Made by a program: the position numbers and the translations under genes. This document shows, in pieces, positions 10,526 to 37,670 of a stretch of 64,000 nucleotides of DNA. The DNA lies in the NCBI RefSeq assembly GCF_041860085.1, contig NZ_CP124747.1:5603001-5667000 (forward strand), written 5' to 3'. Position 1 is the first letter of the stretch; every line of letters begins with the position of its first letter. Source of the stretch: Schlesneria sp. DSM 10557 (lineage in GTDB: Bacteria > Planctomycetota > Planctomycetia > Planctomycetales > Planctomycetaceae). The notes beneath the pieces were generated by a model. That model was not told the DNA's origin. It was given only the letters and a program-made list of their open reading frames with translations, and did not search any database.

Positions 10526-13500
10526 TTGACTTGGCGCACCGTCCTTTCCCATGCATTCCTTACCATCATCCTCTCGGGAATGGTTGCCGTCGCGTACGCA
10601 CAGGAGAAAGCCTCGGGGGATGATCCTCTACCGGCGAAGTCCACAAATGCGGCGACAAAGAACGGGAGTGAACTGACTCTTGAAGCGATTCAGGAACGGG
10701 TCAAGACTGTTGAGGAAAACAATGAGCTTGAGGCCGGTGTCAAAGCCAGGATTCTCGACAACTATGCCAAGACGCTGGTGCAGTTGAAGCAAGCCTCTGA
10801 TGCCACTGCTCTCGGTGAGCAGTACGCTCGTCTGACCCGTGAAGCCCCCGAGACGCTGCAGCAAATCAAGCTGCAACTAGCGAAACCGGCCCCCCCGACT
10901 GCACCCGTGATCGCGCCTGACGCGACTCTAGCGCAGCTCCAGTCGATGCTGACCCAGGCGGAAAGTAATTTCACCGAGGCACAGAAGTCCCTACAGAGTC
11001 TCAAGGAGGAGCCTAAACGCCGGGCTGATCTGCGACTCGAGATTCCTAAAAATGCGGACTCGGCCAAGCAGCAACTCGCCGATATCGAGAAGCAGCTTGA
11101 GACCAAGCCCGCACCGGGTGAGTCAGCTGATTTAACAAATTCCGTGCATGCCTATCTTGAGGCACGTAAGCGAGCCATCACTGCAGAAATGGCGACGGCG
11201 CAGATCGAGTTGCAATACTTTGACTCGACGGGCGATCTCTTGTCGGCCCAGCGCGACCGCGCCGCACAGCGTGTGCTGGAAACGGAAGAACACGCCAAAG
11301 CACTTCGTGCCATCGTCAATGACCGTCGCCGGCAGGAGGCGGATCAGCAGGCGATTGAAGCGACTCGCGCATCTGTCCAGGCCCATCCCGCTGTGCGGAA
11401 AATTGCCGAGGTCAACGCTGCTCTTGCCAGCCGACGTCGGACGCTCGCCACGACCATCGAGAGGACGGCTCATGAAGTCGAACACCTGGATCAGGTCGTT
11501 CAGTTAATGGACGAGCAGTTCAACCGGATTTCCAAGCGATACGACACTGCGGGTACGACAGAAGCCATTGGACTGTTGCTGCGCAAGCAACGCGACGATC
11601 TGCCGAATCGAACCTCAAATGTGCAGGAAATCAATCGAAGGACGGCACTGATCGCAGAAGTGTGTCTGGAGTTGATCGACGACGAAGAAAAGCGAAGCGA
11701 TCTGGCGACGATCGATCGACACGTCAAAGCGATCATGACTCACCTGCAACCTCCAATTCCCGAAAACGAAAAGGAGTACCTGCAGGAGAGTATCAGGCAG
11801 GTGCTGGAAGCTCAGCGTGACCTGTATGACTCACTGATTGCGGACACGAACAGCTATCTGGACAATCTGGTCGAAGCGGATGTCCGACAGCGACAGTTAA
11901 TTTCCAAGGTCGACGAATATGCCGCGTATGCCGACGAACGAATTCTCTGGATTCGCAGTGCGAAAATCCTGGGGCTTGCAGATCTGCATCAGTTGATGCC
12001 GGCGATCAGCTGGCTGGTGAATGGAGAAAACTGGGTCACGGTCGGATACGCGATCTGGAATGACGTTTTGGACCGCCCTCTCCAGGCCTTGCTGCTCCTG
12101 GCCGCCTTCCTGATCCTCGTTTTGTTCCGGCGATTTCTTCGCACGAAGATCACGCAACTCGGGGAAATCGCCGCTCGCAGTAACAACACGGCCTTCTATC
12201 CAACGCTCTGGGTTCTCTTGATCACCGGATTGCTCGCGATCCAGTGGCCCTCGATCCTGTATTACGTCGGACACGCTTTAACGGCGACCGAACGAGGATC
12301 CGAATTCATTCATGCGGTCGGGCAGGGGCTGCGCAAAGCGGGGGTCATCTATGCAACATTCGAGATGCTGCGGCTCGTGTGTCGTCGGCACGGTCTCGGA
12401 GAAGACCATTTCGGCTGGAACAAGACGAGTACGCGGCTGCTTCGCTCCGCAATCTCGTGGTTCATGGTGTGTGGCCTTCCTCTAATCCTGATTGTGACCA
12501 TCACGGAATCTCAGTCCAACGAGTCGATCAAGAACTCGCTTGGTCGGCTGGCGTTTCTGGGGACCCTGATCGCATTGATGGCCTCGGCCCACTCTGTGAT
12601 GCAGCCGGTGGGTGGGGCCCTCGAGTTTGCATACGCGGCCGCTCCTAAAGCCTGGGCCACGCAGTTGAAGACCGTGTGGTACGTTCTGACGCTGTTGTGT
12701 CCGCTGTCTCTCGGCATTCTGTCACTGTCCGGCTATCACTACACCTCGGTTCAACTTGCCTGGCGATTGCTGGCAACGTTCTGGCTGGTGATCGGGCTGT
12801 TAATTGTCCACGCGACGCTGATTCGCTGGTCCTTGCTTTCGTACCGTGACCTGGCGATGCGGAAGGCTCGCGAGCGTCGTGCCGAAGCGGCTGCGGGGGG
12901 AACGCCTGCGGGGACACCCATCGCCGCCGCAGCCTCATTGCCGGGGAAGACGCAGGAAGAGGTTGCTCTTTCCGATATCAACAAACAGTCCCGCAAGGCT
13001 CTGCAACTGTTCATGGCGGTCGGCATGGCGATCGGGGTCTGGCTGGTGTGGGGCGATATCATGCCCGCACTCGGGGCGTTGCGGAATATCGAACTGTGGA
13101 TGGTGGAAACGGCCAGTACGGACGGATCGGCTTCGACGACTGTCCTCAAGCCAGTGACGCTGGCCGACGTGCTGCTGGCGATCGTCATCGGATCGCTGAC
13201 ATTCACGGCCAGTCGCAATCTCCCCAGCTTGCTGGAAATCGCGTTGTTGCAGCGACTGCCACTCGATGCCGGGGTGCGCTACGCGATTACGACTGTGATC
13301 CAATACGCCATCACCGCTGCGGGGCTGGTCACCGCGTTTGGCGTGATGGGGATTGGGTGGAATAAAGTGCAATGGCTCGTAGCGGCCATCGGCGTGGGAT
13401 TAGGGTTCGGGTTGCAGGAAATCTTTGCCAATTTCATTTCAGGTTTAATCCTGTTGTTCGAGCAACCCGTACGGCTGGGCGATATCGTCACCGTGGGGGA

Positions 13501-28114: not shown

Positions 28115-29506
28115 ATGACTGTGTCGATTGAATTCCCCAACGAAAACCGTTCAAACGTTGCTCGTAAGATTGTTGCTCAGCACGAACCCGTGGCGTTGCG
28201 GACGTTCACACCATCCCAGGCAGTCTTTGCCAAGTCGGCAGGTGTCTACCACTGGACGCCGGAAGGTCGAAAGCTGTACGACTATTCTTCCGGTGTGCTG
28301 GTTGCCAATCTGGGCCACAATCCCAAACGCTGGCTGCAGGCGCTGGGGCGGTATATGGGTTGGTCGCCCGAGTTTTTCGGTGGATCCCCCGCAGGGGCGA
28401 ACGAGTATGTCCCCGCGGTAACGCTGACGGCGTACAACGGGATTACCGAAATCGAAACACAGGCTGTCGAACGTCTGCTGGCGAACCTTCGCCGCAGCAA
28501 AGGGAGTGAACGGCTCGACACAATCGTCTGGGCCGCTTCGGGATCGGAAGCGGTTCAGAAAGCAATCTGGGCAAGTCTTTCCCGGGATCGAACCCGAGAC
28601 ATCATTCTGGCGACCCGTTACGGGTTTCACGGAAAGAAGGGGCTCGCGAATGCCGTAACCGGATCAGAAAAGGATGCCGAAAGAGATCCACGAGTCCGAT
28701 TCATCAGCTTCCCGATGGAAGAGATTATCGACGCGGGCTTTGATCCCGCCGCGATTGACCTGTCTAAATATCAGCAGGAACTCGAAGACCTGTGGCGCCA
28801 GTTCGGGCGGAAAATCTCGTGCCTGATTACCGAACCGTATCTGGGGGGGGGAGGAAGTTTCCATCCTCCTGCCGCTTATCATCAGATGCTGCAGAAGTTC
28901 TGTCGCGAGCATGACATTGTGTTGATCTTCGATGAAGTCCAGGCCAACTTTGGTCGGACCGGGGCGATGTATGCCTTCGAAGCTTATGGCATCGAACCGG
29001 ACATGGTGGTGCTTGGCAAGGGCTTGGGGAACGGTATTCCGGTCGCCGCCGTAGCGTCTCGTGGCGATGTCTTCGCCACGATGAAGTATGGTGAGGCCTC
29101 AGATACGTGGAGTGCCAATCCGCTTTCCTGTGCAGCGGTTCTGGCAACGCTTGATGAGTTTGAATCGACGGACGTGCTGAATCATGCCCGCAAGCTGACG
29201 CCCCTCTTTATCAAGGGACTGGAACGCCTGAAATCAACTGGTCTGGTGAACCACGTACGTGGGGAAGGGCTGGTATTCGGGTTTGAGTGCGCTAGTGTTG
29301 GACAACTCACTGCCGGTGAAGTTGCCGCGAAAATCGTGCAGGCGTGTTACGTCGGTAAGGACAATACCGGCATTCACCTGCTGGGGGCACTCGCTGGCAA
29401 GGTGCTGCGCGTCAGTCCACCCCTGACGATCACTGTGGAAGAAGCCAATCAGTCGCTCGATCTGTTGTATGATCTGATCGCATCACTGGCGAAAATAATT
29501 CGGTAG
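28115..29506 (+). CDS. Class III PLP-dependent aminotransferase
   Basis: 463 residues of the class III (acetylornithine/4-aminobutyrate/diamino acid) family. Landmarks are the YDYSSGVLVANLGHNPK N-terminal block, ASGSEAVQKAIWAS, the ITEPYLGGGG strand, FDEVQANFGRTG with the PLP-contacting Asp, and VLGKGLGNGIPVAAV with the Schiff-base Lys. The donor amine and keto acceptor cannot be told: neighbours on either side are unrelated. GGAAGA lies upstream of the ATG at 28115. A weak hairpin downstream (ACAGGCG/CGCCTGT near 29536-29568) may end the transcript. Confidence 0.87.
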   Translation: MTVSIEFPNENRSNVARKIVAQHEPVALRTFTPSQAVFAKSAGVYHWTPEGRKLYDYSSGVLVANLGHNPKRWLQALGRYMGWSPEFFGGSPAGANEYVPAVTLTAYNGITEIETQAVERLLANLRRSKGSERLDTIVWAASGSEAVQKAIWASLSRDRTRDIILATRYGFHGKKGLANAVTGSEKDAERDPRVRFISFPMEEIIDAGFDPAAIDLSKYQQELEDLWRQFGRKISCLITEPYLGGGGSFHPPAAYHQMLQKFCREHDIVLIFDEVQANFGRTGAMYAFEAYGIEPDMVVLGKGLGNGIPVAAVASRGDVFATMKYGEASDTWSANPLSCAAVLATLDEFESTDVLNHARKLTPLFIKGLERLKSTGLVNHVRGEGLVFGFECASVGQLTAGEVAAKIVQACYVGKDNTGIHLLGALAGKVLRVSPPLTITVEEANQSLDLLYDLIASLAKIIR

Positions 29507-29890: not shown

Positions 29891-31069
29891 ATGACTCAAT
29901 TCGGTCGGCGTGATTTCCTGTCGGTTGCAGCCTCAGTCGGTGCCGTTTCGACATGGGCCCTTGCACGCACCCAGGAGGCCGAAGGGGGAAACTCCACCTT
30001 CATGAATAACGTTCCCGATCCCTTGCTGGCGGACAAGGAACTGCCGACGTTCAAATTTTCACTGGATAAGTCGGTCGGCAAAGTCATCGGCGGAAGTTCG
30101 GGAAAGGAAGCGACGGTGCTGCAGCTTCCGATTTCCAAAGGGATCGCTGGCGTTTCGATGATTCTCGAACCTGGTGCGATGCGGGAACTTCACTGGCATG
30201 CTACGGCTGCGGAGTGGGCGTTTGTGCTGAGTGGTCGGGTGCGCACATCGGTGATTGATCCTCAGGGGAACGCAGAGATCAACGATTTCGGTCCCGGTGA
30301 TGTCTGGTATTTTCCACGCGGCCATGGGCACATGCTCGAGTGTCTCGGGCATGAATCGTGTCACTTCATTCTGATCTTCGATAATGGATACTTTTCCGAG
30401 TTCGGCACCTTCAGCGTATCAGACTGGATTGGTCATGTTCCTAAGTCGCTGCTCGCCAAAAATTTCGGGGTCCCTGAGTCTTCGTTCAATGACTTCCCCA
30501 AAGAAGAAGTCTACTTTGCGCGAGGTGCCGTTCCTCCGGACAATCAGCCGATTCCCCTCCAGAACAAGAAGTTGCCTGCTCAAACGCACAAGTATGAGCT
30601 GCTGTCTCAGTCACCTCATGCCACGTTCAAAGGGGGGAGGGAATGGCGAGTTGATTCCACTCGTTTTCCGATCTCGACCACCATTACTGGAGTGATCCTC
30701 GATCTCGAGCCGGGCGGTTTGCGAGAACTGCACTGGCATCCCACGGCAGACGAATGGCAGTATGTGATTGACGGCAACATCAGCGTCACAATGTTTGGCT
30801 CACACGGACGGTATCGGACTGAAGAGCTGGAGCGAGGGGACGTGGGCTATATCCCACAAGGATACGGTCACTCCATCGAGAATATCGGATTAAAACCATG
30901 TCGTGTGCTCATCGGATTCAATACAGGGGTCTATGCCGGGATCGATCTGTCGCAATGGCTCGCCGGAAACTCGCTCGATGTGCTGGCAACCAACTTCAGC
31001 AAGCCTGCCACCCTGTTTGAGAAGTTCCCTCACAAAGATGTTTTTATTGCGGATCAAGAAGGTCACTGA
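29891..31069 (+). CDS. oxdC: Bicupin oxalate decarboxylase with Tat signal
   Basis: 392 residues. The N-terminus GRRDFLSVAASVG is a twin-arginine signal (R6, R7), so the enzyme should be folded in the cytoplasm and exported. Two germin-like cupin domains follow, each with the manganese ligands: HWHATAAEW (H101, H103, E108) with a later His in RGHGHMLE, and HWHPTADEW (H281, H283, E288) with a later His in QGYGHSIE. The bicupin layout and these motifs fit OxdC, which splits oxalate to formate and CO2. An oxalate oxidase activity cannot be ruled out by sequence alone. AGGAG lies just upstream of ATG 29891. The following genes for FdhD and formate dehydrogenase support formate as product. Confidence 0.88.
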   Translation: MTQFGRRDFLSVAASVGAVSTWALARTQEAEGGNSTFMNNVPDPLLADKELPTFKFSLDKSVGKVIGGSSGKEATVLQLPISKGIAGVSMILEPGAMRELHWHATAAEWAFVLSGRVRTSVIDPQGNAEINDFGPGDVWYFPRGHGHMLECLGHESCHFILIFDNGYFSEFGTFSVSDWIGHVPKSLLAKNFGVPESSFNDFPKEEVYFARGAVPPDNQPIPLQNKKLPAQTHKYELLSQSPHATFKGGREWRVDSTRFPISTTITGVILDLEPGGLRELHWHPTADEWQYVIDGNISVTMFGSHGRYRTEELERGDVGYIPQGYGHSIENIGLKPCRVLIGFNTGVYAGIDLSQWLAGNSLDVLATNFSKPATLFEKFPHKDVFIADQEGH

Positions 31070-31293
31070 CGCTGGATCGGTCAGTTCTTCCGAACAGTTC
31101 CAGGCACTCTGTGAAGGGAAATTCGGAAAGGGATGAAGTGCCTGTGTCTGCTGAATCAGAGCGGAATGCAAGCTCAATTTACTCGACTGACTTACCAGAA
31201 GTCGAGCAGGATCCGTGCGGGCGTTCTGCCAACTGAGCATGTCTGGGGAGTTCGCACCTCCATCCGGTACGCCAAGTTATAAAGGCGATTCCA

Positions 31294-32181
31294 ATGTCTT
31301 TCTTCAATGCTGGCCTGACACGGTCCCCGATTCAATGCGTTGAGGGTGGAACTGTCTCGACGGAGATGGATGAGGTATCCATTGAAGAGCCACTGCAGAT
31401 CGAACTGACGCATGTCAGAGGTGGGAAAAAACATCGCTACTCGGTGGCGGTCATGATGCGTACTCCCGGGAATGACGCAGAACTGGCCGCAGGGTTTCTC
31501 TTCACGGAAGGGATCATCAAAAGGCACGATGATTGGAGCCGAATCGAGTACATCGACAATAACCATGTACTGGTCGAGTTCAGCCGATACGCGTATCTGG
31601 ACGTCTCCAAGCTGGAACGCCAGTCGTTCGTCTCATCGAGTTGCGGCGTCTGTGGCAAGAGATCAATCGCCGCAGTATTCTCAGAACAGCAATATCCTCT
31701 CACCCCCGGCAGCCCCCGTCTCGAGGTCGACCTGATCCATCGTTTGCCGGAGATTCAGCGAAAGGCTCAGGATAATTTCCACCGCACGGGAGGAATTCAT
31801 GCGTCGGCTCTGTTTGACGCCAACGGCAATCTGCTGTCCCTGTTTGAGGATGTTGGACGCCACAATGCGCTCGACAAATTGATCGGCAATCAAATGTTCG
31901 CCGACAAGCTGCCTCTTACGCAGCACATCCTTCTCTTGAGCGGTCGCGCGAGCTTTGAACTGATCCAGAAAGCCTGTATGGCGGGGATCCGGGTCGTGGC
32001 CGCCGTGGGGGCTCCCTCAAGTCTCGCGGTGCAACTCGCAAGAGAGACATCGATGACACTCCTGGGCTTTGTTCGTGAGAACCGTTTCAACGTATACGCC
32101 GACGCCGGTCGTCTTCAATTTCACCGTACCTCAGCGCCCGAGGTTGGTTCCCAACCGACTGAAGAGAGCAAACTTCAATGA
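31294..32181 (+). CDS. fdhD: Formate dehydrogenase accessory sulfurtransferase FdhD
   Basis: 295 residues. The conserved CGVCG motif (C117, C120) is the site at which FdhD takes sulfur from a cysteine desulfurase and passes it to the molybdenum cofactor of formate dehydrogenase. Other family blocks are EEPLQIELTH, TPGNDAELAAGFLFTEGII, RTGGIHASALFD, EDVGRHNALDKLIG and LSGRASFELIQKACMAGI. Its TGA overlaps the ATG of the formate dehydrogenase gene by 4 bases, indicating translational coupling. The gap of 224 bases to oxdC leaves open whether both share a promoter. Confidence 0.95.
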   Translation: MSFFNAGLTRSPIQCVEGGTVSTEMDEVSIEEPLQIELTHVRGGKKHRYSVAVMMRTPGNDAELAAGFLFTEGIIKRHDDWSRIEYIDNNHVLVEFSRYAYLDVSKLERQSFVSSSCGVCGKRSIAAVFSEQQYPLTPGSPRLEVDLIHRLPEIQRKAQDNFHRTGGIHASALFDANGNLLSLFEDVGRHNALDKLIGNQMFADKLPLTQHILLLSGRASFELIQKACMAGIRVVAAVGAPSSLAVQLARETSMTLLGFVRENRFNVYADAGRLQFHRTSAPEVGSQPTEESKLQ

Positions 32182-35135
32182 CCACAATGACACTCAATGG
32201 AACGGTTCACGAAGTGAACTCGGGAGAGCGATTGATCGACGTGATTCAGCGGGCGGGGGTCGAGTTACCGTCGGTCTGCTACCACTCACAGCTTGGGCCC
32301 CTTAAGACGTGCGATACCTGCATGGTCGAAGTAGATGGGCAACTTGTCAGGGCGTGCGCCCTGACGGTGGCCGATGGGATGTGTGTGGTCACGACGACGA
32401 ATGCGGCACGTTTGGCACAGAGACAAGCCTTCGACCGGATTTTGGCCAATCACATGCTTTACTGCACTGTGTGTGATAACAACAACGGCAACTGCACGAT
32501 TCACAACACGACGAAGATGTTGAAAGTCGAGCATCAGGAAATTCCGTTCGAACGGAAACCATACGAGGTCGACAATTCTAATCCCTTTTATCGGTACGAT
32601 CCTGATCAATGTTTGCTGTGCGGTCGATGCGTCGAAGCTTGTCAGAACGTGCAGGTCAACGAAACTCTGTCGATCGACTGGACGGCGGAACATCCGCGCG
32701 TGCTCTGGGACGGCGGAGCCGACATCGGCAATTCCAGTTGCGTCTCGTGTGGGCACTGTGTCACGGTTTGTCCCTGCAATGCGCTGATGGAAAAGTCCAT
32801 GATCGGCCACGCAGGGTTTCTGACAGGGATTCCCAAAAAGGCCCTGGATGGAATGATCGATATCGTGAAGGGGGTAGAGCCCGAATCAGGATACAGTGCC
32901 ATCCTGCAGGTGTCGGAAGCCGAATCGGCGATGCGAAAATCACGCGTCCGCAGGACTAAAACGGTCTGTACCTATTGCGGAGTGGGATGCAGTTTTGATG
33001 TCTGGACCAAAGACCGCCACATCCTCAAAGTGGCACCCGAAAAGGGACCTACGAATGGAATCTCGACCTGCGTCAAAGGGAAGTTTGGCTGGGATTTTGT
33101 GAACAGCGAAGATCGACTCACGTCGCCGTTGATTCGCGAGGGGGACTCGTTCCGTCAGGCAAGCTGGGACGAGGCACTCGATCTGGTCGCGCGGCGGTTT
33201 GCGGAGATCAAACACCAGAATGGTCCTGACGCGATTGCATTGATCTCTTCGTCGAAATGCACCAACGAAGAGAGTTACCTCATGCAGAAGCTCGCCCGGG
33301 CGGTCATCGGGACAAACAACATCGACAACTGCTCTCGCTACTGTCAGGCCCCCGCGACGGTGGGGCTCTTCCGGACAGTCGGGTACGGCGGAGATGCCGG
33401 TTCTATCTCTGACATCGCGCAGGCAGGGCTGGTCCTGATCGTTGGCAGTAATACCGCGGAAAGCCATCCCGTTCTCGCGACCCGGGTGAAGCGAGCTCAC
33501 AAGTTACACGGGCAGAAACTGGTCGTCGCGGATCTGCGCGAGCACGAAATGGCACGGCGTGCAGATGTGTTCTTCCAGCCTCATCCGGGCACGGACCTGG
33601 TCTGGCTATCAGCGATCAGCCGCTATCTGATTGATGAAGGTCTGATCAATCATGAATTCCTCGGTCGCTGGGTTCATGGCCTGGAGGAGTACCGACGAAG
33701 TCTGGAGATGTTCACTCTGGAGTTTGCCGAGACGACGTGCGGAGTTTCCGCTGCCACCTTAATGAAGGTGGCTCAGATGATCGCCGCGGCGGATGGGGTG
33801 TGCGTGCTGTGGGCGATGGGAGTGACTCAGCACACCATGGCCTCGGATACGTCGACTGCCATATCGAACCTGCTGCTGATCACCGGCAATTACATGCGGC
33901 CGGGGGCAGGTGCCTATCCGCTACGAGGGCACAACAACGTACAGGGGGCCAGTGATCAGGGAGCCATGCCGGCAATGCTTCCCGGTTACCAGTCGGTGAC
34001 GGATCCCGAGGTCCGAGCACGCTTTGAAAAGGCTTGGGGCGTCACCTTGCCTCGCACTACGGGCCTGGATAACCACGAAATGGTCGACGCCATTCGCGAT
34101 GGCCAGCTGAAGGCGATGTACCTGTTTGGTGAAGAAATGAGTCTTGTTGATTCCAACGCGAACTATGTCGAAGAGCAGTTCTCGAAGCTGGAGTTCTTTG
34201 TCGTTCAGGACATTTTCTTTACCCATACCTGCCAGTTTGCGGACGTGATTCTTCCCGCCGCCCCGAGTCTGGAAAAAGAGGGGACTTTCACGAGCACGGA
34301 ACGACGGATTCAGCGACTTTACGAAGTCATGGAGCCGCTACCAGGAAGTCGTCCCGACTGGCGCATCATTCAGGAATTGGCCAATCGAATGAATGCGGGA
34401 TGGAATTATCGACATCCTTCCGAAGTGATGGACGAAATGGCCTCACTCACCCCGTTATACGCGGGTGTCTCCTATGAACGGCTGGAGGGTTATCGCTCGC
34501 TTCAGTGGCCCGTCGCGGAGGACGGAACTGATCAACCGCTACTTTACACCCAGCAGTTTGCATTTCCCGACGGAATGGCGAGGCTATACCCGATCGGCTG
34601 GACAGTGCCGACAGAACAGCCGGATGCCGAGTACGACTTGCATCTGAACAACGGCAACTTGCTGGAGCATTTCCACTCGGGCAATCTGACCTACCGCGTC
34701 CCAGGGATCAAAACCAAGACGCCGGATGTTTTTGTGGAAGTCTCTCAGGAACTGGCTCGAGAGCGAGGTATTCAGAGTGGCACGATGGTGGAACTGACAT
34801 CACGTCACGGCAAGATTCAACTCCGGGCCCTTGTGACAGACCGTGTGAAAGGCCATCAGTTGTTCATGCCCATGAATTCTGCGGAGTCGGCGGTGAACCG
34901 GTTGACGGGCAGCAACACGGACGCCGTAACGCACACGCCGGCATACAAAGAAACCGCGGTTCGTATGCGCGTTGTTGCGGGTGATATTCGCAGCCCGCTG
35001 CCCCGAATCAATCATCGCTTCGGCCATCCTACGCCAAAGCCGGGTGTCGAAGTCGAACTGAAGTGGAAGCGGAAAGACTATTCCGTACCAGGAGGCGACC
35101 TGGTTCAGCTCGAACCCTATTCCCGGCCGACGTAA
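32178..35135 (+). CDS. fdhF: Formate dehydrogenase catalytic subunit, ForC-like (Cys-Gln active site)
   Basis: 985 residues. In order: a 2Fe-2S domain (C34, C45, C48, C60), a NuoG-like Cys/His cluster region (LYCTVCDNNNGNC), two 4Fe-4S motifs (CLLCGRCVEAC and CVSCGHCVTVC), the 4Fe-4S site of the molybdopterin domain (CTYCGVGC), the bis-MGD catalytic domain and a C-terminal dinucleotide-binding domain. The molybdenum ligand is Cys389 in NCSRYCQAP; the next residue is Gln, whereas most formate dehydrogenases have His. The same His-to-Gln change marks the Bacillus subtilis ForC enzymes, which pair with a DUF1641 subunit and reduce menaquinone. A DUF1641 gene follows here. There is no Tat signal, so the enzyme is cytoplasmic. 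No FdsB/FdsG-type diaphorase subunit is nearby. Confidence 0.92.
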   Translation: MTTMTLNGTVHEVNSGERLIDVIQRAGVELPSVCYHSQLGPLKTCDTCMVEVDGQLVRACALTVADGMCVVTTTNAARLAQRQAFDRILANHMLYCTVCDNNNGNCTIHNTTKMLKVEHQEIPFERKPYEVDNSNPFYRYDPDQCLLCGRCVEACQNVQVNETLSIDWTAEHPRVLWDGGADIGNSSCVSCGHCVTVCPCNALMEKSMIGHAGFLTGIPKKALDGMIDIVKGVEPESGYSAILQVSEAESAMRKSRVRRTKTVCTYCGVGCSFDVWTKDRHILKVAPEKGPTNGISTCVKGKFGWDFVNSEDRLTSPLIREGDSFRQASWDEALDLVARRFAEIKHQNGPDAIALISSSKCTNEESYLMQKLARAVIGTNNIDNCSRYCQAPATVGLFRTVGYGGDAGSISDIAQAGLVLIVGSNTAESHPVLATRVKRAHKLHGQKLVVADLREHEMARRADVFFQPHPGTDLVWLSAISRYLIDEGLINHEFLGRWVHGLEEYRRSLEMFTLEFAETTCGVSAATLMKVAQMIAAADGVCVLWAMGVTQHTMASDTSTAISNLLLITGNYMRPGAGAYPLRGHNNVQGASDQGAMPAMLPGYQSVTDPEVRARFEKAWGVTLPRTTGLDNHEMVDAIRDGQLKAMYLFGEEMSLVDSNANYVEEQFSKLEFFVVQDIFFTHTCQFADVILPAAPSLEKEGTFTSTERRIQRLYEVMEPLPGSRPDWRIIQELANRMNAGWNYRHPSEVMDEMASLTPLYAGVSYERLEGYRSLQWPVAEDGTDQPLLYTQQFAFPDGMARLYPIGWTVPTEQPDAEYDLHLNNGNLLEHFHSGNLTYRVPGIKTKTPDVFVEVSQELARERGIQSGTMVELTSRHGKIQLRALVTDRVKGHQLFMPMNSAESAVNRLTGSNTDAVTHTPAYKETAVRMRVVAGDIRSPLPRINHRFGHPTPKPGVEVELKWKRKDYSVPGGDLVQLEPYSRPT

Positions 35136-35286
35136 GCAATTGACAACTTTTATTAATACAGCAGGACCTCAGGAATTCTGTCGTCGTCTCACTGGTTCCG
35201 CGGCTCCGGATGACTTCGCGTGGATGACGCACGTCGAAATTCCAGGTGGACTTACCACTTCCAACACAAATGGGAAGAGTGACAAC

Positions 35287-35763
35287 ATGGCAAAACCGAT
35301 CCCGAAGAACATCAACCACCCTGATCCCCGGATTGAACTTCAAACGAGACTGCAGAATGCTTCTGTTGAGCATGCCGAGGCAATCCTGTCGGGGCTGGAG
35401 ACGCTGCAATGCCTGCACGAGTGCGGGGCTATGGAGTTCGTTCGCGGACTGCTGGGGTCCAGTGACGAGGTCCTTCAGATCGCTGTCGATGCCGCAAGGA
35501 CTCCGTCATCCATTCGAGGGATTCGGAACTTGATTCTGCTGATCAACATGTTCAGCGAAGTGGACCCCGAAACGCTGAAGGCGGTGACCCGTACACTGCC
35601 GCAGGCGCTCAAGTCGATGAGTGCGAGCACGGAAACTCCCTCCACATGGCGACTTTTCACAGAATTGTTACGGAATCAGGATACTCGACGAGGGCTGGGT
35701 GCAATGAATAAAGTCCTGGCCACGTTCGGACACGAACTGTCGGCCGCTCATGGGGCTCAGTGA
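35287..35763 (+). CDS. DUF1641 protein, ForE-like formate dehydrogenase partner
   Basis: 158 residues with the DUF1641 pattern: EAILSGLETLQCLHECGAMEFVRGLLG, then SIRGIRNLILLINMFSEVDPETLKAVTRTLPQA. In Bacillus subtilis the DUF1641 protein ForE binds the catalytic subunit ForC and is needed for menaquinone reduction. Its position 151 bases after the formate dehydrogenase gene supports the same role here. The ATG at 35287 has GGGAAGAG 7 bases upstream; the frame opens earlier with TTG 35140, but that extension is unlike the family. Segment 525-560 of the coding region is hydrophobic and could touch the membrane. Confidence 0.85.
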   Translation: MAKPIPKNINHPDPRIELQTRLQNASVEHAEAILSGLETLQCLHECGAMEFVRGLLGSSDEVLQIAVDAARTPSSIRGIRNLILLINMFSEVDPETLKAVTRTLPQALKSMSASTETPSTWRLFTELLRNQDTRRGLGAMNKVLATFGHELSAAHGAQ

Positions 35764-35833
35764 GCCCAAGAGACATTCAGTTCCTGCATGAGAGACGCCG
35801 GGCGTTCCGAATCCTACGACAACTCAGGTGATG

Positions 35834-36397
35834 ATGAGCGAATCGAAAATCAAACCGGCTGATACGATCACCGTCCTTGTCACGAGGAGGATCCGAGATG
35901 GCGGAGATGATGCTTTCGAAGATGCTCTGAAACAATGGATCCCGCGACTGACCCGGTTTCCGGGACATCTGGGAGTTCAGATGTTGCGTCCCTTACAGGG
36001 TGATCGGGAATACGGTGCGGTCATCACCTTCCGGTCAACGCAGGACTGGGAAGCATTTCAGCAATCTTCCGATTACCGGCAGTTTCTCGAAGAGATCAAG
36101 CCCCTCCTTGATACAAATCCTGGGTTTGTCACTGCCAACGGGTTGGAGAGCTGGTTCTTACCTCCGGAAGATCGTGGTGCATCCCTGCCACCACGCTGGA
36201 AGATGGCGATTGTGACCTGGATGGGAGTGAGCTTTACGGTCTATACCGTGACGACATTGCTGGCCCCGTATCTGAGCAATTGGCCGTGGCTGCCGAGATT
36301 TCTGTTAAGCAACGCGTGTGTCGTTAGTGTACTGACATGGTGCGTGATGCCGGCTCTTACCAGCGTCTTTCGTTCGTGGCTTTCTCCGCGAACTTGA
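35834..36397 (+). CDS. Antibiotic-biosynthesis-monooxygenase (ABM) domain protein with C-terminal membrane helices
   Basis: About 187 residues. The N-terminal half is an ABM ferredoxin-like domain: ITVLVTRRIRDGGDDAFEDALKQW, FPGHLGVQMLRP and EYGAVITFRSTQDWEAFQQSSDY. Two hydrophobic segments at about residues 122-145 and 150-172 anchor it in the membrane. The domain type is found in small oxygenases and in regulatory or stress proteins, and no catalytic residue can be assigned. It lies 70 bases after the DUF1641 gene on the same strand and could be part of the oxalate/formate cluster. ATG 35834 has AGGTG nearby; ATG 35831 and GTG 35828 are alternatives. Confidence 0.75.
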   Translation: MSESKIKPADTITVLVTRRIRDGGDDAFEDALKQWIPRLTRFPGHLGVQMLRPLQGDREYGAVITFRSTQDWEAFQQSSDYRQFLEEIKPLLDTNPGFVTANGLESWFLPPEDRGASLPPRWKMAIVTWMGVSFTVYTVTTLLAPYLSNWPWLPRFLLSNACVVSVLTWCVMPALTSVFRSWLSPRT

Positions 36398-36452
36398 GGT
36401 TTAATAGCATCGTTCCGGTCGCCGCGCGATGTTCAACGGAAGTATGTTTGCT

Positions 36453-37670
36453 ATGACTGATCAGCCATCCAACGCATCCAACGCATCCAACGAATCCTCG
36501 CCTGATCCCGCCACAATCGCCGCTCGAGCCGGGTTGGCCCCCCCGTTCACAACGCGATCGAGTTCTCCTCCAATCTATATGACCACGGCGTTCGACCTCG
36601 AGTCGCTCGAGCAGCTCGATTCCGTCGTGGGAGGGCGAGAGAAAGGGTACATCTACACCCGTGACGGCAACCCGAACCATGAAGCGTTCGCAACCGATGT
36701 GGCTCAACTGGAACATGCCGAATCGGGAGTTGTCACCGCGTCCGGTATGGGTGCTCTGACTGCGATTCTGATGGCCACCGTGAAGACGGGTGACCATGTC
36801 CTCGCGGCCCGCGTGCTGTACGGTCGCACGGGGCAGCTACTCGCTCATCTGGCAGCCTCATTCGGCATCCATGTGACTTACTTCGATGTCGAGGATGTGG
36901 ACTCACTCAAGTCACTCATCACACCTCAGACGCGGCTGTGCATTGTGGAATCGATCTCCAATCCACTGCTCGAAGTGGCCGACCTGCCGGCGATCGCAGC
37001 CATTCTGGATCAGATACCCCTGCTGGTCGACAACACGTTCGCAACGCCATGCCTGCTGCGACCGATAGATCATGGTGCGTCGCTGGTCTGGCATAGCGTC
37101 TCCAAATATCTGAACGGACACGGGGATGTCATGGCGGGTATCGTCGTCGGGCCGGAGGGTCTCATTCGCAAGATTCGAGCCATGTCCAGTCTTTACGGAG
37201 TGAACGCCAACCCATTCGAGTCATGGCTGGCCGCACGCGGACTTCGAACTTTGCCCCTGCGTATGCAGCGAGTTTCCGAGACGGCTCTCGAGGTGGCGCG
37301 GTTTCTGGAAGGTCATCCACACGTTGCGAAGGTCTACTACCCGGGGCTGAGCAGTCATCCAAACTTTGAACGTACTCAACGACTTTTGCCGCATGGACAA
37401 GGTGGGATGCTGGCTTTTGAAATCACCGGTGGTCGACCAGCGGTGGACGTGTTGTTTCGGCGGTTAGCTGAAGTAATTCCCTTCTCCCCCACGTTGGCGG
37501 ATGCACGGACAACAATGTCCTATCCGGCAGGAACTTCCCACAAATTCATGAGTTCCGCATCGCGAGCGGAATATGGAATCGGAGATGGTCTGGTTCGACT
37601 ATCGATTGGGCTCGAGGCACCTGACGATCTTAACCGGGAACTCGGTGCTGCGCTCACATCCCATGTTTGA
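36453..37670 (+). CDS. Cys/Met metabolism PLP-dependent enzyme (cystathionine gamma-synthase/lyase family)
   Basis: 405 residues. Family blocks include PPIYMTTAFDLES, YIYTRDGNPNHEAF, ASGMGALTAILMA, the VDNTFATPCLLRP strand and SVSKYLNGHGDVMAG with the PLP Lys. The C-terminal SLGYG-like region reads YPAGTSHKFMSS, followed by VRLSIGLEAPDDL. Members include cystathionine gamma-synthase, cystathionine lyase, O-acetylhomoserine sulfhydrylase and methionine gamma-lyase, which cannot be separated here. The first 20 residues contain an Asn-Ala-Ser repeat from a 9-base DNA repeat. ATG 36453 has GGAAG upstream at somewhat long spacing; ATG 36429 is an alternative. It follows the ABM gene by 55 bases. 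Confidence 0.88.
   Translation: MTDQPSNASNASNESSPDPATIAARAGLAPPFTTRSSSPPIYMTTAFDLESLEQLDSVVGGREKGYIYTRDGNPNHEAFATDVAQLEHAESGVVTASGMGALTAILMATVKTGDHVLAARVLYGRTGQLLAHLAASFGIHVTYFDVEDVDSLKSLITPQTRLCIVESISNPLLEVADLPAIAAILDQIPLLVDNTFATPCLLRPIDHGASLVWHSVSKYLNGHGDVMAGIVVGPEGLIRKIRAMSSLYGVNANPFESWLAARGLRTLPLRMQRVSETALEVARFLEGHPHVAKVYYPGLSSHPNFERTQRLLPHGQGGMLAFEITGGRPAVDVLFRRLAEVIPFSPTLADARTTMSYPAGTSHKFMSSASRAEYGIGDGLVRLSIGLEAPDDLNRELGAALTSHV

Follow-up and report, generated by a model that had tools for sequence, protein, structure and literature searches.

An oxalate decarboxylase gene with a twin-arginine signal beside ForCE formate dehydrogenase genes in Schlesneria sp. DSM 10557: a possible oxalate-to-quinone module

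The sequence analysed here, referred to as the window, is a stretch of 64,000 nucleotides (nt) from Schlesneria sp. DSM 10557 (GCF_041860085.1, NZ_CP124747.1, positions 5,603,001-5,667,000 of the forward strand), whose genome is a single contig of 7.07 Mb. An earlier annotation made from the letters of the window (the original prediction) placed five genes in one direction on it, for a bicupin oxalate decarboxylase (oxdC), FdhD, a formate dehydrogenase (forC), a DUF1641 protein (here forE) and a membrane protein with an ABM domain, and all five open reading frames are present on the plus strand (Table 1). The block was found to join a ForCE-type formate dehydrogenase, with its own FdhD, to an oxalate decarboxylase carrying a twin-arginine (Tat) signal. 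Co-occurrence and proximity of oxdC and forC exceed chance in Planctomycetota, in Acidobacteriota and in one Verrucomicrobiota genome.

Proteins encoded by the block

The oxalate decarboxylase passed the TIGR03404 model with 344 bits (cut-off 254), in agreement with the predicted bicupin assignment. Its nearest solved relative is 2vqa, the protein Sll1358/MncA (E 9e-96), and B. subtilis OxdC was matched with an E-value of 9e-81. Residues were compared in an alignment of 44 rows, which represent 40 distinct genes, since four rows only add a further stretch of a gene already included. For the planctomycetes the alignment takes in the best matches from the 64 OxdC-bearing genomes described below, not all of them; the numbering follows B. 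subtilis OxdC. The lid, W96, W132, W274, H95, H97 and E101 are named in PMC8254039. The first His3-Glu metal site and the lid residue Glu162 are present in 43 of the 44 rows, L016 not being covered, and the second site in all 44; the arginines, the lid glutamate, W96, W132 and W274 are retained in every covering row. The other residues, and a catalytic role for the glutamate of the lid, belong to the general background on this enzyme.

The lid (window residues 169-173) reads SEFGT in the window, in 37 of 38 planctomycete rows and in the verrucomicrobial locus L032, the one other planctomycete row, L165, having SEGDT. Four acidobacterial proteins with a readable lid carry SEDNT, SEDGT or DEDNT. 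The SENST lid of B. subtilis OxdC is thus absent from the window protein, and it does not define the OxdC/MncA family, because MncA itself has SEGAT.

At the N-terminus, the motif GRRDFL is followed by a hydrophobic stretch, as read by pattern and by eye. A script matched the twin-arginine pattern in 43 of the 44 rows; four of these matches (L020, L140, L142, L144) were discounted for an implausible start, for three rows (L119, L136, L159) the script stopped at an earlier position and the motif was identified by eye, and the script missed L016, whose open frame contains the motif. MncA, an Mn oxalate decarboxylase, is a Tat substrate too; the OxdC of B. subtilis is located in the cytosol (PMC11742986). 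Given the twin-arginine signal, the window's OxdC is probably exported, and oxalate would be split outside the cytoplasm while formate is oxidised inside. MncA of Synechocystis is similar in its bicupin sequence, twin-arginine signal and metal ligands; it differs in the lid (SEGAT versus SEFGT), and the window's OxdC is in addition linked to a formate dehydrogenase. A second OxdC, 69% identical and also with an SEFGT lid, is found in the window's genome at G000:C1:1157781-1158950 (L088, L167).

The product of fdhD scored 217 bits with PF02634 and 166 bits with TIGR00129 (cut-off 141), as expected from the original prediction, and its gene is the single match, and sole copy found, in the window's genome. 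ForC scored 842 bits with the formate dehydrogenase model TIGR01591 (cut-off 666). It is full-length, and its best solved relative is YjgC/ForC1 (8rqz), with 1494 bits across residues 3-973. The N-terminus carries Fer2_4, NADH-G_4Fe-4S_3 and Fer4 matches above cut-off, and the cluster-type cysteines are retained in all covering rows (83 or 86 rows). The active-site residues are C389-Q390 and R583-G584-H585, identical in 86 of 86 relatives, and CQ and RGH are the definition of the ForC subfamily (PMC8808070). The NAD-dependent formate dehydrogenases of the FdsA type share the domain layout of the catalytic subunit but have CH in the active site where the window and its 86 relatives have CQ; no gene for a diaphorase (FdsB) was found among the eight proteins scanned from the block and its flanks. 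ForC also matches two other molybdopterin enzymes in the window's genome, both lacking the N-terminal domain, and, in three pieces, a NuoG-like frame with a length of 560 residues. The forC match of locus L043 (10001-12941) is split, with about 4 nt between its two pieces; a frameshift or an assembly error may be the cause.

No Pfam model, DUF1641 included, matches the fourth protein, first labelled DUF1641, even at E 10, and its identity as ForE rests on the phmmer match to ForE1 (8rqz_A, E 5.9e-10), the position behind forC and the family alignment. A family profile built from ten proteins, one of them from Bacillota, matches ForE1 at E 1.4e-45. Aligned relatives begin at the position of ATG 35287 and not at TTG 35140, which opens the longest frame. 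With E-values of 0.014 and 0.016, the same profile also has weak matches to the NDH-2 membrane coupling protein and to YjlC, a hint that these proteins share a domain for coupling to quinone or to the membrane.

The ForCE enzyme of B. subtilis is found in the cytosol, binds menaquinone-7 (MK-7) and reduces menadione (PMC8808070). The window's pair is predicted to be a formate:menaquinone oxidoreductase as well. With ForCE1 and ForCE2 of B. subtilis (YjgCD, YrhED) it has in common the NuoG-like N-terminus of ForC, the CQ/RGH active site and forE directly downstream. Unlike in B. subtilis, where fdhD is distant (PMC8808070), fdhD is here directly upstream of forC, oxdC adjoins, and the ForE protein goes unrecognised by the Pfam model. 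The fdhD and forC genes overlap by 4 nt (ATGA, 32178-32181). Because oxdC is 224 nt away from fdhD, a single transcript for the block is only putative; in a promoter and terminator scan of the region, the numbers of sites were not above those in shuffled sequence.

Table 1. Features of the block and its flanks (window positions)
Feature	Position	Strand	Assignment	Basis or remark
Left flank	28115-29506		class III aminotransferase	
oxdC	29891-31069	+	bicupin Mn oxalate decarboxylase, MncA-like; N-terminal twin-arginine (Tat) signal GRRDFL	TIGR03404, solved relatives, residues
oxdC-fdhD gap	31070-31293	+		224 nt; no promoter- or terminator-like site listed
fdhD	31294-32181	+	formate dehydrogenase-maturing sulfurtransferase	PF02634, TIGR00129
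forC	32178-35135	+	Mo-bisPGD formate dehydrogenase, NuoG-like N-terminal Fe-S domain	TIGR01591, YjgC/ForC1, motifs
forE	35287-35763	+	menaquinone-coupling partner subunit	phmmer to ForE1, alignment, profile
ABM-domain gene	35828-36397	+	ABM-domain protein, hydrophobic C-terminal half	PF03992; probably outside the system
Right flank	36429-37670		Cys/Met pyridoxal phosphate (PLP) enzyme	

Co-occurrence and linkage of oxdC and forC

Counts rest on 397 sampled genomes from the planctomycete class, with cuts set by hand (E up to 1e-30 for OxdC and 1e-190 for ForC). OxdC was found in 64 genomes, ForC in 9 and both in 8, against 1.5 expected (Fisher p 2.4e-6, uncorrected for kinship). Within the window's genus, 4 of 14 sampled genomes have OxdC, ForC and FdhD and the other 10 have none of the three (p 1e-3). 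In four of the nine ForC genomes, the window's included, oxdC lies at most 5 kb from forC, where 0.02 would be expected by chance. Three arrangements are seen among these four loci: oxdC runs in the same direction at 1.1 kb in the window, is convergent at 3.1 kb in G632 and at 3.8 kb in G325, and is divergent from fdhD at 1.3 kb in G310. The fdhD gene is directly upstream of forC in six of the nine genomes; one small DUF2721 gene intervenes in G445, and fdhD is away from forC in G304, G476 and G424. Behind forC, forE is found in eight genomes, the contig of G424 ending within forC.

A whole-phylum sample of 294 genomes was also searched, and as its class share is itemised only in part, the counts were taken from the class sample instead. 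In this larger taxonomic range, the window's genome was the only one with OxdC (E up to 1e-30) and also the only one with a full-length ForC match; ForC matches at 1e-150 occurred in 70 genomes, all but the window's beginning near residue 250 or later.

Outside the class sample, we used the best 80 of 593 ForC loci. A full 10 kb on both sides was available for only 41 of these 80, so that linked cases may be missed. Seven of the 80 have oxdC within 10 kb of forC: L012, L016, L017, L020 and L023 (Acidobacteriota), L032 (Verrucomicrobiota), in which oxdC stands behind forE in the same direction, and L044, which is G325. The three OxdC proteins scanned from these loci (L012, L016, L032) all pass TIGR03404. 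L013 was rejected as a further oxdC-linked locus, having only short matching pieces of 27-32% identity.

Random placement was tested on 49 of the 80 loci, from 48 genomes of Acidobacteriota, Verrucomicrobiota and Phycisphaerales, after dropping 29 Bacillota loci together with L007 (= G480) and L044, both already in the class sample. The 48 genomes contain 40 OxdC matches spread over 22 genomes. Six of the 49 loci have oxdC within 10 kb, compared with 0.17 expected (p 3e-8; p 3e-5 when the pairs L012/L017 and L016/L023 are counted once each). In a ForC tree made by a quick method, the linked loci fall on four branches, namely Planctomycetota, Bryobacterales, a branch with L016, L020 and L023, and L032. 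Identity to the window's OxdC is about 34-45% for OxdC proteins from outside the class; as the acidobacterial ones reach only about 34-42% and have other lids, the pairing of oxdC with forC probably arose more than once.

At the window's place, the block was found in none of the 11 genus relatives examined, three of which carry it elsewhere; this comparison left out G433 (no match) and G599 (contig too short). Synteny to the right of the block (from 36429) extends over two to four genes in 4 of the 11; on the left side it is seen in none of them, and no clean insertion boundary could be drawn.

A putative oxalate-to-quinone module and its alternatives

We lean towards reading the block as a module in which exported OxdC supplies formate to a cytoplasmic ForCE enzyme, which reduces menaquinone. 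From the enzyme families, the active-site residues, the twin-arginine motif, the linkage and the co-occurrence, all of which are read directly from the sequences, we infer the following course. OxdC would fold and load Mn in the cytoplasm, leave by Tat export and, with O2 present and on the acid side, act beyond the cytoplasmic membrane, where it would yield formate and CO2 from oxalate. The formate (in acid habitats, formic acid) would enter the cytoplasm and there serve as the physiological substrate of ForC, activated by the FdhD encoded directly upstream. ForC would oxidise it to CO2 and relay the electrons along its Fe-S chain; at the interface of ForC with ForE, menaquinone would take them up, and an oxidase would accept them from there. 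Somewhat more doubtful is the wider proposal that ForCE, in a group of Planctomycetota, Acidobacteriota and Verrucomicrobiota, has the natural task of respiring formate made by exported Mn OxdC from environmental oxalate, by a path free of coenzyme A (CoA) and of an antiporter, linked to menaquinone and gained or lost as a unit.

Related uses of oxalate are known. White-rot fungi likewise convert oxalate through formate to CO2 with OxdC and a formate dehydrogenase and keep the electrons, and energy from oxalate by way of formate dehydrogenase is an older proposal for them (PMC11045627); their formate dehydrogenase is NAD-dependent, whereas that of the window is a menaquinone-linked Mo enzyme. 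The same carbon path is followed in oxalotrophy of the Oxalobacter type with Frc, Oxc and OxlT (PMC12927642), which in contrast is CoA-dependent and antiporter-coupled. Neither CoA enzymes nor OxlT were present among the eight scanned proteins, to which the search for frc and oxc was confined.

According to the original prediction, no description of the gene combination in planctomycetes was known. This applies to the pairing, for which no description was found in the available parts of the literature on OxdC with formate dehydrogenase, ForCE, DUF1641, and Schlesneria with oxalate; it does not apply to ForC, since planctomycete ForC sequences, and synteny between such genes and DUF1641 genes, have already been published (PMC8808070). 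The word 'oxalate' is absent from the main text of that paper and, in the available portion, from a 2026 review covering ForCE (PMC13397495). Oxalate uptake systems have been inferred for freshwater Planctomycetacia (PMC6461901), and the ForCE operons of B. subtilis are seemingly unexpressed under the usual formate dehydrogenase conditions (PMC8808070). Each enzyme is of a known kind; a coupling between exported OxdC and ForCE is predicted, as a new form of oxalate use, and the recurring link to OxdC gives ForCE a testable source of formate. If the coupling is real, oxalate, an abundant acid of fungi and plants, joins the respiratory substrates of poorly cultured phyla, its use may be overlooked where it is sought only through CoA-dependent genes, and ForCE gains a physiological role.

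Several observations weigh against the proposed coupling. Conserved gene order was not found: oxdC-fdhD-forC-forE in one direction occurs in the window's genome only among the nine, and neither order nor strand of oxdC and forC is conserved. A functional link between OxdC and ForCE nevertheless has more support than the original prediction could draw on, from co-occurrence and proximity and not from conserved order. The two genes are 23 kb apart in G445, on different contigs or 1 Mb apart in G304, G480 and G476, and G424, a genome that is 74% complete, has ForC without an OxdC match. The planctomycete linkage may in part be shared through gene transfer and not have arisen again. At the cut used, 56 of the 64 OxdC genomes are without ForC; 9 of 11 such genomes tested have FdhD (G320, G420, G408, G336, G481, G436, G315, G529, G335), which hints that OxdC is paired there with another formate dehydrogenase. 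No oxdC was found in the 29 Bacillota stretches examined, nor in the analysed stretches of the 26 ForC sources that carry a transporter gene described below, and the latter result slightly lowers our confidence in the coupling. Genes for cytochrome bd oxidase stand beside ForC in only 2 of 87 sources.

A further difficulty is the passage of formate. Because OxdC has a Tat-like signal and ForC has none by eye, formate must cross the membrane, and the window's genome yielded no FNT formate channel in a search with positive controls; a search of that genome with a carrier encoded near other ForC genes, a query that is not itself OxlT, gave only a protein of 26% identity. The term 'complete route', used in the original prediction, is therefore too strong. 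Diffusion of formic acid into the cell is plausible in acid habitats.

Three other explanations of the block were weighed. It may be an island for defence against acid and oxalate, in which both enzymes are kept together for removing acids and the electrons given to menaquinone are a by-product; we regard this as rather unlikely, and it does not exclude respiration, as the two functions are not mutually exclusive. In its favour, acid and benzoate induce fdhD, yjgCD and yrhEFG in B. subtilis, and acid outside the cell induces oxdC (PMC2788229), words like bog and palsa occur as isolate names in the record titles of some relatives, and peroxide-related genes are found near oxdC in three loci (dps and a di-haem peroxidase gene in two, a catalase-family gene in the third). 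Against this, the cydAB genes that adjoin forCE in two genomes suggest respiration, and no acid-stress gene was recognised among the neighbour families present in at least four loci, which were named by eye. The same three loci with peroxide-defence genes, and the SEFGT lid in place of SENST in nearly all planctomycete rows, would also suit a cupin acting mainly as an oxalate oxidase, which forms CO2 and H2O2 and would supply little formate. This is very improbable, considering that the lid glutamate, both metal sites and the three tryptophans are retained in every covering row and that the four acidobacterial partners with SEDNT, SEDGT or DEDNT lids show the same linkage.

There is also a small chance, lower than that of defence, that the genes are near each other without forming a pathway, with ForCE using other formate, OxdC serving in Mn-dependent detoxification or as an Mn store, and both being drawn from a common gene pool. 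The many OxdC genomes without ForC, the transporter genes near ForC in sources without oxdC, and the absence of the block from its place in the genus relatives are in line with this. Linkage on several branches with distant OxdC proteins, at six loci where 0.17 were expected, and the all-or-none pattern, fdhD included, across the 14 genomes of one genus speak for the coupling of OxdC to ForCE instead.

Neighbouring genes

The ABM protein has the predicted domain (PF03992, 46.6 bits), its membrane nature is read by eye only, and as a member of the system it was rejected: no counterpart was found at E 1e-3 in the best 80 ForC loci or in 13 further planctomycete stretches. This lack of conservation goes against the five-gene set first proposed, and the ABM protein is probably not part of the system.

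Directly upstream of fdhD-forC-forE, cydA and cydB (cytochrome bd oxidase) are found in G325 and G445 (L157:4026-6405, L158:10030-12531), which belong to different families and make up two of the nine ForC genomes of the class. Their position is in line with a transfer of electrons from menaquinol to a bd oxidase. In the window's genome cydA was not found with one query and without a positive control in the search, which is weak evidence.

A transporter gene of the lactate/monocarboxylate type of the major facilitator superfamily (MFS) lies near ForC in 26 of 87 sources (e.g. L033:13665-14927), in 23 of them downstream and in the same direction; 14 sources are Acidobacteriota, 11 Bacillota and 1 Phycisphaerales. 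As an oxalate/formate antiporter the carrier was rejected, since the three proteins scanned were all below the cut-offs of the oxalate/formate antiporter families. Two of them pass the lactate carrier family with 444 and 467 bits (cut-off 320), and the carrier of L075 scored 311. Carriers of this type are candidate formate importers for ForCE, and the separation of carrier and oxdC may mean that ForCE serves different sources of formate in different lineages.

Beside the ForCE genes, dps, oxdC and a di-haem cytochrome c peroxidase gene stand together in two loci (L155:2012-4969, L157:11030-16002), and in L156 a catalase-family gene (11822-12991) comes after oxdC. A pair of genes of the HlyD type and of an efflux-MFS type, the latter named by eye, was seen near the module in two planctomycetes (L156:13570-16748, L158:1681-4934).

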